DNA of 22,081 bases from a virus. Under the pieces are notes generated by a model. The model was not told where the DNA came from, made no database searches, and saw only the letters and a list, made by a program, of their open reading frames with translations. Shown piece after piece: positions 15,971-22,081 of this stretch (position 1 is the first letter of the stretch; the number at the start of each line of letters is the position of its first letter). The position numbers and the translations under genes are program-made. The stretch lies in IMG/VR virus record IMGVR_UViG_3300042861_000607, positions 1-22,081 of that record. One strand, written 5' to 3'.

Positions 15971-16210
15971 TTATTTATCCTCCTTAATCACAATCTTATA
16001 TCCAAGACAGTTGACCACTGCTTCTAGTTCGCTGATTCTGGGGTTTCTGTCCCCTCTGCGCCATTTTCTCATAGTTGAGGATGTGACGCCAGATTTTTCA
16101 GCTAAGTCTTCTTGAGACCATTCATCGAGATTTATCCTTTTCCAGATAAACCTAATTATGGGATGAACACCCCGGCCCTCAGGAACCTTCTGGGTTTGGA
16201 ATTGCTTCAC
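15971..16210 (-). CDS. Xre-family HTH regulator
   Basis: A 79-residue protein with a clear Cro/CI-type helix-turn-helix: WSQEDLAEKSGVTSSTMRKW followed by RRGDRNPRISELEAVVNCLG (about residues 30-70). It would bind DNA as a dimer and control phage genes. The start is GTG at 16210, with GGAG 7 bases before it, and it overlaps the upstream stop (GTGA). It sits inside the run of small genes rather than beside a divergent promoter, so it does not look like a classic lysogeny switch. Confidence 0.8.
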   Translation of the reverse strand: MKQFQTQKVPEGRGVHPIIRFIWKRINLDEWSQEDLAEKSGVTSSTMRKWRRGDRNPRISELEAVVNCLGYKIVIKEDK

Positions 16211-16440
16211 CAGTCATCTCCAAGCGTTTCTCTGGCGATACGCAGTTCTCTGTAAGGGACAAGAACGCCATGGATATCTGGCATAGGCATGGCAGAAACA
16301 CCGGCGCGAACTTCAAACGCCTTATCTGAGAAAGGCTGCAAAACGCTTTCCAGCTCCGCAATACGCTCTGATTGGCGCATATTGTCGTTCAAAAGTTCAT
16401 TATATTTCTCAACCGATATAGTAAGCATCTTCGCAGTCAT
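16207..16440 (-). CDS. Small array-type protein, divergent tail
   Basis: A 77-residue protein related to the array that lies upstream. It has SERIAELESVLQPFSD (residues 24-38), a variant of the array box ARIAELEAALKPF, and a worn tail, ELRIARETLGDDW, in place of LRAARAALGE. A short coiled coil is likely over residues 8-35. Its ATG at 16440 overlaps the upstream stop as ATGA, with AAAGGAG 6 bases before it. I read it as the downstream edge of the array. No biochemical role can be named. Confidence 0.65.
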   Translation of the reverse strand: MTAKMLTISVEKYNELLNDNMRQSERIAELESVLQPFSDKAFEVRAGVSAMPMPDIHGVLVPYRELRIARETLGDDW

Positions 16441-16676
16441 TTAAGTCTCCTTTTATCCGCTCTCTTTTGCCGCTCTTTCCACACATAATAAAGACGCTTA
16501 CGAGACTTGTGCAGATACCACAGCTCCATAAACATCGGCTCTAGTTCTTCGCTTAGCCTTATCGTGTCATCTACCAATCGCTTATAGAGTTCTTCTTCTT
16601 CCTCTGTTGCAAACTCCATCGTTGAGATGCTGCGCTGCATTATTACTTTTCGCATGACGATGGCGTTGGTGGTCAT
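16437..16676 (-). CDS. Hypothetical small helical protein
   Basis: A 79-residue protein with a basic N-terminus, an acidic stretch (ATEEEEELYKRLVDD) and a strongly basic aromatic C-terminus (LHKSRKRLYYVWKERQKRAD). It lacks both array boxes. No strong ribosome site precedes the ATG at 16676, and ATG codons at residues 8, 13 and 20 are possible starts. The stop overlaps the next start (ATGA). It could bind nucleic acid through its basic tail, but this is only a composition argument. Confidence 0.5.
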   Translation of the reverse strand: MTTNAIVMRKVIMQRSISTMEFATEEEEELYKRLVDDTIRLSEELEPMFMELWYLHKSRKRLYYVWKERQKRADKRRLK

Positions 16677-16711
16677 TTCAGCACTTTGTTCAGAAGATTA
16701 AGCACGGGTAT

Positions 16712-16783
16712 TCAGATGATAATCCCAAAGATAGCTCCAATGAATGCAGCTAGAAACTGCAAAAGCAATTGGCCTTCAGTCAT
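16712..16783 (-). CDS. 23-residue membrane peptide
   Basis: A reading frame starting MTEGQLLLQFLAAFIG and ending AIFGIII forms a single hydrophobic helix with almost no soluble part. Its ATG at 16783 overlaps the end of the previous gene by 8 bases and has AGAAGG 3 bases before it, within the same GAGAAGG...ATGACTGA arrangement that starts other genes of the array. Such peptides are known among phage inner-membrane proteins, holin-like peptides and small toxins, but no role is shown here. Confidence 0.55.
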   Translation of the reverse strand: MTEGQLLLQFLAAFIGAIFGIII

Positions 16784-17051
16784 TTTCCTTCTCCAAATCG
16801 ACGCATTCTTTGAGAGCGTCTTCAATATTGGCGCTTGACAAAAAACGAGACATAGAATTTCTCAAATCATAAAGACGGCAAATATCTTTATGATTCAGCT
16901 CCGACTTATTTATATCTATGAAGTCTCCAAGCAAGTCTATTATCAACTTTATATTTTTGTATGGGGCGCGTGTGTTATTTTGAGACTTGTTAATAGAATC
17001 TATCTTTGAATTAAGCTCATCTATGGAAAAACGTTCATTTATCGTCATCAT
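16776..17051 (-). CDS. Hypothetical small protein
   Basis: A 91-residue, Asn/Ile/Lys-rich, mostly helical protein (INERFSIDELNSKIDSINKS at the start, DIEDALKEC-like end). It has neither array box nor tail, and its DNA is richer in A+T than neighbouring array genes, which suggests a separate origin. Starts are possible at ATG 17051 (GGAG 5 bases before) or ATG 17048. It overlaps the upstream stop by a few bases. Function unknown. Confidence 0.55.
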   Translation of the reverse strand: MMTINERFSIDELNSKIDSINKSQNNTRAPYKNIKLIIDLLGDFIDINKSELNHKDICRLYDLRNSMSRFLSSANIEDALKECVDLEKEND

Positions 17052-20743: not shown

Positions 20744-21302
20744 CACTCTCTCCCATCGCCGTGCGGGCGCGCTGGATATAGTCGCCACTTTCATTGCGGC
20801 TTGCTATTTCAAGCGTCTCTTTCAACGAAGCCAGCAGCAGCGCGTTCTCAGCCCGCAGCCGCTCCATTTCAACGACATAGATTTTTACTTCTTCGTCGCA
20901 TACTTCACGATAAGTCCTGTGAAATGTATTGCGCTCCATTTCCAGCTTCGCGTTCTCAGCCCGCAGGGCTTCGATTTCGGCTACCATCTTTCCGTTCATC
21001 TCCGCATATCCGTGGAGCGTGTCGTAGTAAGCGCGAATATCGTCTGTGTCGATAAAGTAATGGTCATTTTCAAGCGACCAGCTTACCGACTTCAATTCAG
21101 CAAAAGGCTTCAACGCCTCCCGTAGCTTCTCGATTTCATCGGCGGCTTCTATCTGTTTATCTTTCAGATATTGGCAGTCCTCAATCATGGCCGATATGAC
21201 CTTTCGCTGACGGTCTATTTCGACGGCAGCTTCTTCCATCATAGGGAGCCAGCCATCCAAGATTGATAGGCTTCTTAGCCGCTCGACAATGTCGTCACTC
21301 AT
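20736..21302 (-). CDS. Long coiled-coil array protein
   Basis: A 188-residue protein, the longest array member. MSDDIVERLRSLSILDGWLP at the start, EIEKLREALKPFAELKSVSW near residues 57-76, EIEALRAENAKLEMERNTFH and MERLRAENALLLASLKETLE as repeated coiled-coil boxes, and the worn tail QRARTAMGESDE. The ATG at 21302 follows AAGGAGG and overlaps the previous stop by 8 bases. Function unknown; likely an elongated dimer. Confidence 0.7.
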   Translation of the reverse strand: MSDDIVERLRSLSILDGWLPMMEEAAVEIDRQRKVISAMIEDCQYLKDKQIEAADEIEKLREALKPFAELKSVSWSLENDHYFIDTDDIRAYYDTLHGYAEMNGKMVAEIEALRAENAKLEMERNTFHRTYREVCDEEVKIYVVEMERLRAENALLLASLKETLEIASRNESGDYIQRARTAMGESDE

Positions 21303-21465
21303 TTACAACCTCCTTAAAAGTGCCGGAGGCGATGAGTGCGCGAACGACTTCCGCGTATCGGCAACCTGTTAAATCTGCGACGTATTGAATGGCGTATTCG
21401 GTAGACATTTCGTCATCGACATAGGTATTCCATACATCAAGTATATCTTCTTGCTTCTTAGTCAT
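21295..21465 (-). CDS. 56-residue small protein without array boxes
   Basis: A short frame from ATG 21465 (MTKKQEDILDVWNTYVDDEM, then YAIQYVADLTGCRYAEVVRA and ALIASGTFKEVVNE). GAGAAGGG lies just upstream and the previous stop overlaps as ATGA. The middle could be two or three helices resembling a small helix-turn-helix (YVADLTGCRYAEVVRALI). It has no ARIAELE box and no tail, but its last codons supply AAGGAGG for the next gene. Function unknown. Confidence 0.6.
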   Translation of the reverse strand: MTKKQEDILDVWNTYVDDEMSTEYAIQYVADLTGCRYAEVVRALIASGTFKEVVNE

Positions 21466-21734
21466 TTACCCTTCTCCTTTAATGCGGCTGTTGCGGGGCC
21501 GCCCGTAAAGTTCGCGCTGTTAGGGTCAAGCGGGCCGTTGCGCCGCCAATTATCCTCGTCTGCATAGAATTTCAGCGCCGCTTCAAGTTCCGCGATACGG
21601 GCCATTTGATGACGGATTATATCAGCGGCGTCCTCCACATCCCCCTCAGAATATTTGCACGGGTCGTCAAGCAGGTCGCACAATTCGAGCAGATATTCCG
21701 GGTTGCTTATGTTTTTGGCTACTTCGTCTCTCAT
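21462..21734 (-). CDS. Coiled-coil array protein
   Basis: A 90-residue protein: acidic start (NPEYLLELCDLLDDPCKYSE, GDVEDAADIIRHQM), the box ARIAELEAALKFYADEDNW, a Gly/Pro-rich link (NGPLDPNSANFTGG) and a worn tail ATAALKEKGK. The ATG at 21734 has GGGAGAGAAGGA upstream and overlaps the previous stop (ATGA). Function unknown. Confidence 0.67.
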   Translation of the reverse strand: MRDEVAKNISNPEYLLELCDLLDDPCKYSEGDVEDAADIIRHQMARIAELEAALKFYADEDNWRRNGPLDPNSANFTGGPATAALKEKGK

Positions 21735-21772
21735 TCCTTCTCTCCCAGATAAGCGGCGCGGGCGGCGCGTAT
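21731..21772 (-). repeat. 42-base exact repeat, copy 2
   Basis: Identical to 20098-20139. Together with the 111-base repeat just upstream it shows that the gene at 21731-21955 shares its start with one paralogue (17398) and its end with another (20098). Confidence 0.85.
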
Positions 21773-21955
21773 AGCTCCGTCATCGTCGGTATTGTCATAG
21801 GCAATGATTAAATCAATAACCGCCTCAAGTTCCGAGATGCGGGATTTCAATTCATCAATTCGATGAGCCAAAAGTAGGAAGGACGTATCCTTATCCTTGC
21901 TCAAACCGCAGTCGTAGCCATCCGAATAACCACGGTCATAATCTTCCTCAGTCAT
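21731..21955 (-). CDS. Array protein, YDRGYSDGYDCG subfamily
   Basis: A 74-residue protein: DYDRGYSDGYDCGLSKDK and SFLLLAHRIDELKSRISELE, nearly identical to the start of the gene at 17398-17715, then a short link and the tail IRAARAAYLGEKE. It starts at ATG 21955 with GGGAGAGAAGG before it. A longer frame to 22057 reads through the upstream gene's tail out of frame, so I rejected it. It is a shortened relative of the 105-residue copy: after the common box the two differ completely until the tail. Confidence 0.7.
   Translation of the reverse strand: MTEEDYDRGYSDGYDCGLSKDKDTSFLLLAHRIDELKSRISELEAVIDLIIAYDNTDDDGAIRAARAAYLGEKE
21845..21955 (-). repeat. 111-base direct repeat, copy B
   Basis: Partner of 17605-17715. 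Both encode the first 37 residues of their genes. The identity stops at the ARIAELE box, where the genes diverge, so this box is one edge of the exchanged segment. Confidence 0.8.
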
Positions 21956-22081
21956 CCTTCTCTCCCAGATAAGCGGCGCGGGCGGCTCTCCATAACGAAT
22001 AGTCCACAGGATACGGCGGCTCAAACGGGCCTTCGGCTTTATCCGCCTTGTCAGCAAACGGCTTCAGCGCCGCTTTAAGTT
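21948..22081 (-). CDS. Partial array protein, start beyond window
   Basis: The last 43 codons of a gene whose start lies beyond 22081. It reads LKAALKPFADKADKAEGPFE, PPYPVDYSLW and RAARAAYLGEKDD, so both the ALKPF box and the common tail are present. Its stop overlaps the next start by 8 bases (ATGACTGA). This frame is easy to miss because a longer overlapping frame starts at 22057 but has no array features in that part. It shows that the array continues past the window. Confidence 0.75.
   Translation of the reverse strand, partial: LKAALKPFADKADKAEGPFEPPYPVDYSLWRAARAAYLGEKDD

Follow-up and report, generated by a model that had tools for sequence, protein, structure and literature searches.

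Phages are known to shuffle small genes through short sequences shared at gene borders, as in the boundary sequences of lambdoid phages and in promoter-stem-loop cassettes of the T4 type, which lie between genes. Mosaicism, domain shuffling, and relaxed recombination are already known. Domain mosaicism in phage proteins has been described as recent and ongoing exchange of fragments between phages (Smug et al. 2023, PMC10684548). Rad52-like phage recombinases support relaxed homologous recombination, in which sequences of about 100 bp within genes are often exchanged (PMC3945230). Ea22 has been described as early and tetrameric, with a C-terminal domain that varies (PMC10834534), and a comparison of Ea22 proteins reported a common end motif, +GE, of 'unknown significance' (PMC7093339). 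The open-licence literature searched contained no small-gene array in which two joints are fixed and in frame and one of them also serves as the ribosome-binding site of the next gene. This text concerns a candidate for such an array, located at 16207-22079 on the minus strand of the IMG/VR virus record IMGVR_UViG_3300042861_000607 (22,081 bases, hereafter the window).

The array comprises 22 small genes encoding 23-188 amino acids, labeled g01 to g21 plus g19b. With a probability of roughly 0.78, it would be an operon of half-gene cassettes with exchangeable parts at two joints. In a full cassette, a variable head would be followed by a constant coiled-coil joint (the core box; for example, 18068-18100 in g15), and a middle that also varies would lead to a second constant joint at the tail (the tail box; for example, 21958-21986 in g01, which holds the end of one gene and the Shine-Dalgarno sequence [SD] of the next). 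Compared with boundary sequences and T4-type cassettes, one of these joints lies inside the coding frame and the other combines coding with ribosome binding. The passages of PMC10684548 on domain mosaicism stress receptor-binding proteins, endolysins, and neck and replication proteins, whereas the array consists of small genes sharing two fixed joints; the words coiled-coil, Ead, and ribosome are absent from the main text of that paper. Rad52-like relaxed recombination corresponds to the mechanism proposed here, and the relevant passages of PMC3945230 contain no fixed in-frame or ribosome-binding joint. A phiCbK paper considered as a boundary-sequence parallel was set aside, as its passage concerns genome ends.

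Intergenic spacings in the array are -1, -4, -8, -11, -14, or -20 bases, the one exception being a 35-base gap before g20. The core box (ARIAELEAALKPF-like) occurs in 14 of the 22 genes (g01, g03, g05-g08, g10, g12-g15, g17, g18, and g21) and the tail box (AARAAYLGEKE-like) in 12 (g01, g02, g07, g08, and g10-g17). Nine genes contain both, 17 contain one or the other, and five contain neither (g04, g09, g19, g19b, and g20), while a variant tail is present in four further genes (g03, g05, g06, and g18). Boxes were scored at a threshold of at least 9 bits; the DNA profiles were derived from the copies in the window itself, which therefore match by construction. The best score in the remaining 16,206 window bases was 3.8 bits. 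By eye, two DNA families can be recognized for the core (GCGGAACTTGAAGCGGCGCTGAA and CTACGGGMGGCGTTGAAGCCTTTT) and two for the tail (GCCCGCGCCGCTTATCTGGGAGAGAAGG and GCCGCATTRAAGGAGA). These families mix, with g07 combining core family 2 and tail family 1, and g03 combining core family 1 and tail family 2.

Codon usage indicates that the boxes are constant as DNA. At same-residue sites, codon agreement reached 246/256 in the tail, where the first five codons of 11 of the 12 copies were compared (25% expected), and 282/426 in the core (13 of 14 copies, the cut g01 copy being excluded; 32% expected), with 92/115 inside one six-copy core DNA family. None of 1000 simulations reached any of these values. 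The segments between the boxes are unlike one another. The original prediction, made from the window alone, had described about 20 tiny head-to-tail genes with almost no gaps, most of them sharing boxes constant at the DNA level, with segments differing from gene to gene in an array that runs past the window edge. These features all hold; g01 is cut at 22079 and the last gene, g21, ends at 16207.

Conservation of the boxes extends beyond the window. All 198 cores and 193 of the 199 tails keep a single reading frame, counts that include redundant loci and that the gene caller may favor. A second group of contigs (eight rows, examined by eye), which we take from their sample numbers to come from bog-lake samples, encodes RIAELEAALKPF and LRQARKVLGEKE-like peptides with other codons that are alike within the group. 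Since the same box peptide appears there with other codons, the coiled coil itself seems to be selected. Box DNA thus seems to be homogenized within a group, and the box peptide kept between groups. The tail and core patterns gave no matches in 84,980 bacterial and archaeal species genomes, with a core pattern 6 bases longer than the version that found 53 viral stretches, and array-bearing phages may rarely be prophages.

The tail box appears to carry a second function. Every tail box contains GGAGA-like bases immediately 5' of the next start. As read from the sequence, the tail joint is both the C-terminal end of gene n and the putative SD and overlapping start of gene n+1 (GGAGAGAAGG-ATG), so that cassettes could be swapped without breaking the operon. 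An SD of at least 4 nt is found at 20 of 21 array starts examined (g20 is without one) and at the adjoining helix-turn-helix (HTH) gene, compared with 7 of 12 other starts in the window. The size of the overlap sets the last residues read from identical DNA. An overlap of -4 gives boxes ending in GEKE, and an overlap of -8 gives GEKDD, GEKNG, or GEKGD. Among 115 distinct junctions after tail-box genes, spacings were -4 (68), -8 (25), -1 (7), -11 (3), and others, six of them at 64 bases or more, with the starts in these loci set by our own gene caller, which rewards an SD. Boxless genes follow the same SD rule with other codons, namely AAGGAGG in g04 and AAAGGAGA, read in another frame, in g20.

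Exchange of segments was examined in a comparison set of 177 loci in 111 clusters (numbered with the prefix L), gathered by tail patterns, a core pattern, the portal protein, three array pieces used as module queries, and one annotated phage. Loci fetched by box patterns contain boxes by construction, and figures for the module queries are therefore given apart. The g05 module query ends in the first three core-box residues, and the other two are box-free. Between the window array and other clusters, matches are short and nearly identical (21100-21579, 96%; 17943-18085, 98%; 17766-17978, 98%). A further match, 20096-20543 in the g07 region, is 99% identical in L021 and L048, and both of its ends lie in boxes. 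The segment of g03 common to L021 and L048 starts in the core box (21579), and L188 has a different head. Furthermore, g09 is shared with L066 within 19510-19787, a segment running from box to box, and a box-free query retrieved five loci with relatives of g11.

Hybrid genes illustrate the reassortment of heads and middles. The g05 head and the g06 middle form one gene in L021/L188, L048, and L189, which are contigs of three metagenomes, and L189 adds yet another tail. At 98% DNA identity, the g05 head is joined to a wholly different C-terminal half in L191 and L192 (contigs of 168 and 56 kb). In L011, L021, and L042, the g01 middle sits behind other heads. The g15 middle is 98% identical in L010 and L041, where it follows another head and both borders lie in boxes. 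The sequences of L042 and L041 agree at 99.94% over 1656 bp and at 92.9% over the 937 that follow. After this alike stretch, they have one head, different middles, and different genes beyond. The L041-type head-middle junction is identical in contigs of seven metagenomes.

Partner counts show the same pattern. Of the heads present in at least two phage clusters, 12/14 meet at least two middles; for middles, 11/13 meet at least two heads. When identical head-middle pairs were collapsed first (97 unique of 148 usable genes), these values became 13/13 and 11/11, a count that favors exchange. In pairs from different phage clusters, a shared middle came with a shared head in 17/47 cases and a shared head with a shared middle in 17/155. 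Without the largest head cluster, which is inflated by single linkage, co-sharing was 9/24 in both directions. Head and middle thus stay together in some pairs but not in many others.

The positions of match borders were compared with circular shifts, using unique ends of matches of at least 80 nt at 85% identity or more. Borders fell in a box in 15 of 25 cases (shift mean 5.7), a count reached by 6 of 1959 shifts. In module-query loci alone, the figure was 11 of 17 (mean 3.9; 5 of 1959 shifts). When gene junctions were added post hoc, 20 of 25 borders lay in a box or at a junction (mean 7.8; 1 of 653 shifts). Collectively, these comparisons show that heads, middles, and whole genes have moved between phages, with borders at the joints beyond chance. 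Moreover, of 16 records examined, 13 contain the tail box and 2 a relative of the window portal, which suggests that modules cross phage types, several of these records being fragments. The reversed box pattern, used as a control, gave no matches.

Segments shared with other phages differ by 124 synonymous changes (934 sites) and 116 non-synonymous changes (3,578 sites), and the resulting ratio of non-synonymous to synonymous changes per site (pN/pS) is 0.24 across 34 non-independent comparisons covering 13 of 15 modules. Fully identical segments account for 20 of the 34 comparisons, which points to recent exchange. The prediction of modular gene production with exchangeable segments is supported, as related phages display gain, loss, and in-frame swapping at the boxes in place of the same genes in unchanged order. 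Likewise, the pN/pS value bears out that the frames are translated. Two separate observations concern gene structure in other loci. HTPGPW proteins in L113, L115, and L119 have a shared head and different C-terminal parts that meet near AAPDMLEAL. At 3743-3934 of L188, a NUMOD4-like head (by eye) appears to enter the tail box in the wrong frame, as if from an out-of-frame exchange.

Among described proteins, the Ead/Ea22 family (PF13935; lambda Ea22, P22 EaD, HK620 hkaG) most resembles the array. The likeness is one of architecture only, with a head, a coiled coil, and a variable C-terminal part, together with a constant GE-containing tail that holds the SD of the next gene. In contrast, sequence homology is not detectable. 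The PF13935 profile matched none of 21 window proteins (g01-g21, with g01 cut), and it matched all four controls (lambda, P22, HK620, and JM3.2; E 1.8e-29 to 4.6e-20). In the short lambdoid regions read, Ead is represented by one gene each, whereas 17 of 22 array genes have a box and the core box is also a repeated joint. A tetrameric state and an influence on lysis or lysogeny have been reported for Ea22 only (PMC10834534, PMC7093339).

The C terminus of lambda Ea22 reads AGIRIKGE, and the +GE end is encoded by the same DNA, GCTGGCATTCGCATCAAAGGAGAGTGA, in lambda, JM3.2, HK620, and SF11. The C-terminal parts that precede this shared end are unlike in all six pairs of these phages. In JM3.2, HK620, and SF11, the +GE tail reads AAAGGAG, with one base between the stop and the next annotated start. 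HF4s (AAAGGAG) and D6 (AGGAG) carry the run slightly further inside, epsilon34 has GGGGGAG, and P22 has the weaker AAGGGGGA. An SD-like run in the GE codons is therefore present in all eight Ead genes read. An annotated next gene stands at the Ead end in seven of the eight, the P22 start being marked unconfirmed, and lambda instead has a 191-base gap; it seems to have lost the gene after ea22. Eae-type ends (LRKGG.Q) follow the same SD pattern. In our reading, the +GE tail of Ea22/Ead would be the ribosome-binding site of the next gene. The passages of three Ea22 papers and the literature searches yielded no such statement, which may still be in print. Among the numbered loci, the KGE tail corresponds to AAAGGAG in lambda ea22 (L169, 1048-1063), L172, L173, and L175, and it lies immediately 5' of the next start in the last three.

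A mechanism can be outlined from this anatomy. The joints keep the reading frame, so the hybrid protein made by an exchange would be intact, as would the signal for the next gene. Exchange could occur during co-infection by ordinary, error-tolerant homologous recombination between joints of 25-35 bp, carried out by phage annealing recombinases. Ribosomes would be relayed from gene to gene through translational coupling. The most tentative steps concern the products, which might be early, oligomeric coiled-coil proteins presenting variable ends to host targets, as is thought for lambda Ea22, and shuffling might renew the ends so presented. The analogy with Ea22, which is early and tetrameric and has a variable C-terminal domain, is the reason for suggesting that array products could be early accessory proteins whose ends meet host targets, a role that we regard as possible but somewhat doubtful.

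Searches for known families and structures yielded no function. Of the 22 array proteins, 21 were scanned against Pfam and 10 against NCBIfam, and none of them scored above the curated cut-off. PADLOC (10 of 22 scanned) returned three weak matches (E 0.003-0.006), which lie on stretches of coiled coil or cover portions of large models. Host takeover or anti-defence, which the original prediction mentioned as frequent in phage regions of this pattern without claiming proof, is a conceivable role for the array, and these scans gave no firm match for it. In PHROGs, PHROG 1273, of unknown function, matched g06 and one relative, and no function was assigned. Comparison of array proteins with solved structures gave no match, nor did tblastn of g05 and g06 against annotated phages, and a literature search for the HTPGPW motif found no paper containing it. 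An AlphaFold model of g15 contains helices at residues 18-79 and 95-109, with a mean predicted local distance difference test (pLDDT) score of 79.6 and a predicted template modeling (pTM) score of 0.45. The g15 product is thus predicted to be mainly a long helix.

Four other explanations were weighed against the exchange of half-gene cassettes. The one that survives best, although still unlikely, is a neutral cassette ratchet in which insertion and swapping are harmless by design and the array accumulates without any benefit from diversity. It accommodates the variable number and order of cassettes, as well as the lack of a known function for the products. However, the pN/pS of 0.24 indicates that the swapped segments are under purifying selection. 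An improbable explanation is old tandem duplication with concerted evolution. In this case, gene conversion keeps the boxes alike while the rest diverges, and no real exchange between phages takes place. Some genes do look duplicated, as the heads of g02 and g17 are about 91% identical in DNA, and boxes are alike within the array. Nevertheless, phages share segments at up to 100% identity that end sharply and have different partners on the other side, and such segments need transfer beyond local copying.

A dedicated site-specific system, integron-like or invertase-like, is improbable to a similar extent. Recombination at the boxes by such a system would fit the finding that two short conserved boxes contain borders. 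However, core and tail are unrelated border sequences, each in more than one DNA family, and borders also occur at a start codon (21303) and outside boxes. No recombinase was present among the window proteins scanned, and neighbors differ in two other arrays read, with an integrase in MW202748 and none seen in L041. For an integron-like system in particular, no integrase was found among the window proteins scanned of this incomplete genome, a search that did not extend to attC-like structures, and the joints are read in frame as coding sequence. A diversity-generating retroelement, which would involve a reverse transcriptase and a template repeat with adenine mutations, is a further known system for comparison. 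No reverse transcriptase was found among the window proteins scanned, again from an incomplete genome, and the variation seen is segment exchange. Least probable is an assembly artefact in which metagenome assemblers join reads at repeated boxes. In its favor, the contigs are mostly metagenomic and the boxes are repeats of about 25-36 bp. Against it, the same g05-g06 hybrid recurs in three metagenomes and the L041-type junction in seven (samples may share sites). Such boxes also occur in MW202748, a record submitted as a complete genome, and isolated lambdoid phages show the design with boxes of their own.

Several points weigh against the interpretation of the array as an operon of exchangeable half-gene cassettes. 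All support comes from sequence comparison, and the data are mostly metagenomic assemblies, where repeats can create chimeras. Mean anti-SD pairing energy barely differs between array starts (-7.2 kcal/mol) and other window starts (-6.6 kcal/mol). An SD of the next gene inside overlapping genes is common, and the array is distinctive only in that one constant box carries them. Ten of the 25 match borders lie outside boxes, five of them neither in a box nor at a gene junction, and borders of portal-fetched loci are uninformative, as one of the three lies in a box and 1044 of 1959 shifts do as well. Regarding mechanism, no annealing recombinase was found among the window proteins scanned, Erf occurs in one relative, and few neighbors were read. 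The part of the g15 model that starts at residue 71, which takes in the C-terminal helix, has low confidence (pLDDT 57-69). The model carries no oligomer information, and no product appears tied to a host target.

The individual genes, all on the minus strand, display the cassette layout to different degrees. At the window edge, the truncated g01 (21948-22079) retains a core, a middle, and a tail ending in GEKDD. It is followed by g02 (21731-21955), with a DYDRGYSDGYDCGLSKDKD head and a tail, and by g03 (21462-21734), which pairs a family 1 core with the variant tail TAALKEKGK. The boxless g04 (21295-21465) ends in FKEVV, whose codons contain the AAGGAGG that provides the SD of g05. At 188 amino acids, g05 (20736-21302) has a head starting with MSDDIVERLRSL and the core LREALKPFA. 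The same core occurs in g06 (20384-20743) between an HTPGPW head, which belongs to PHROG 1273, and the variant tail AAAAALKETGDE. A DYDHGFAEG head precedes core family 2 and tail family 1 in g07 (20098-20391), and g08 (19745-20101) holds a core and a tail (AALGDKNES). The boxless g09 (19621-19755) encodes a membrane-like peptide of 44 amino acids. Core and tail return in g10 (19419-19640), and g11 (19240-19422) has the tail AARAALGENE without a core.

With two cores and an inner relic tail, g12 (18752-19243) is apparently a fused double cassette; it looks like two cassettes joined after loss of the inner stop. The relic tail box (18940-18963; TARAVLEKNNG) has an SD and an ATG in another frame. 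Next, g13 (18544-18765) carries a core and a tail ending in GEKNG, and g14 (18258-18551) combines a head containing one CPRC motif with a core and a tail. A VTDYSDLITRLR head with core, middle, and tail makes up g15 (17933-18265). The tail of g16 (17715-17936) is AAYLGEK, without a core, and g17 (17398-17715) has a DYDRGYSDG-type head like that of g02, a core, and the tail AARAALGERE. A weak core (9.4 bits) and the variant tail AAKAALENK characterize g18 (17048-17401). Of the remaining genes, g19 (16776-17051) is boxless, and g19b (16712-16783), which overlaps it by 8 bases, encodes a membrane-like peptide of 23 amino acids. At the end of the boxless g20 (16437-16676), the SD of g21 is read in another frame (KRRLK), and g21 itself (16207-16440) has the core SERIAELESVLQPF without a tail box.

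Located 3' of the array on the same strand are a Cro/C1-type HTH gene, a second small gene, and then the terminase. The terminase large subunit (12937-15750) contains an intein with a LAGLIDADG domain (PF14890, PF14528). Two HNH-type endonuclease genes lie among the late genes, at 119-904 (minus strand; endonuclease VII and HNH_3) and 3540-4154 (plus strand; HNH_3 and AP2). The window portal protein has relatives at 25-43% identity in 18 annotated phage records, including phages of Pelagibacter, Roseobacter, Caulobacter, cyanobacteria, and Alcaligenes, as well as unnamed spring-water phages. We infer that the window is a fragment of a tailed phage of this kind. Array neighbors elsewhere are of early type. 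They comprise a DUF2800/PD-(D/E)XK nuclease, a DnaA-C domain protein, and DNA polymerase A in L041, and Erf, an exonuclease, SSB, and an integrase in MW202748. In the record of L011 (62,412 bases), three tail boxes recur near both ends with equal spacing (2133-2829 and 57941-58637), which suggests a long terminal repeat containing part of the array.

More broadly, the array could represent a general, recombination-driven device for diversification. Open-ended operons of half-genes would let co-infecting phages combine coiled-coil proteins while all products are expressed. Such a device would have arisen with different joints in at least three groups, namely the array, the second contig group, and the lambdoid Ea operon, and would explain the +GE of lambda Ea22; we place this wider proposal at even odds. 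Tiny phage genes of unknown function are abundant, and how they originate and are swapped without operon breakage is an old question. The anatomy described here suggests a testable answer, in which the tail would write the next ribosome-binding site into codons and the core would allow in-frame recombination of fronts and backs. It leads to predictions as to which motifs at the C termini of small phage proteins serve as ribosome-binding sites and not as protein motifs. It also offers a practical route to finding such arrays and cutting them into modules for function screens. As such, the array has the look of a natural toolkit from which new small proteins are assembled.

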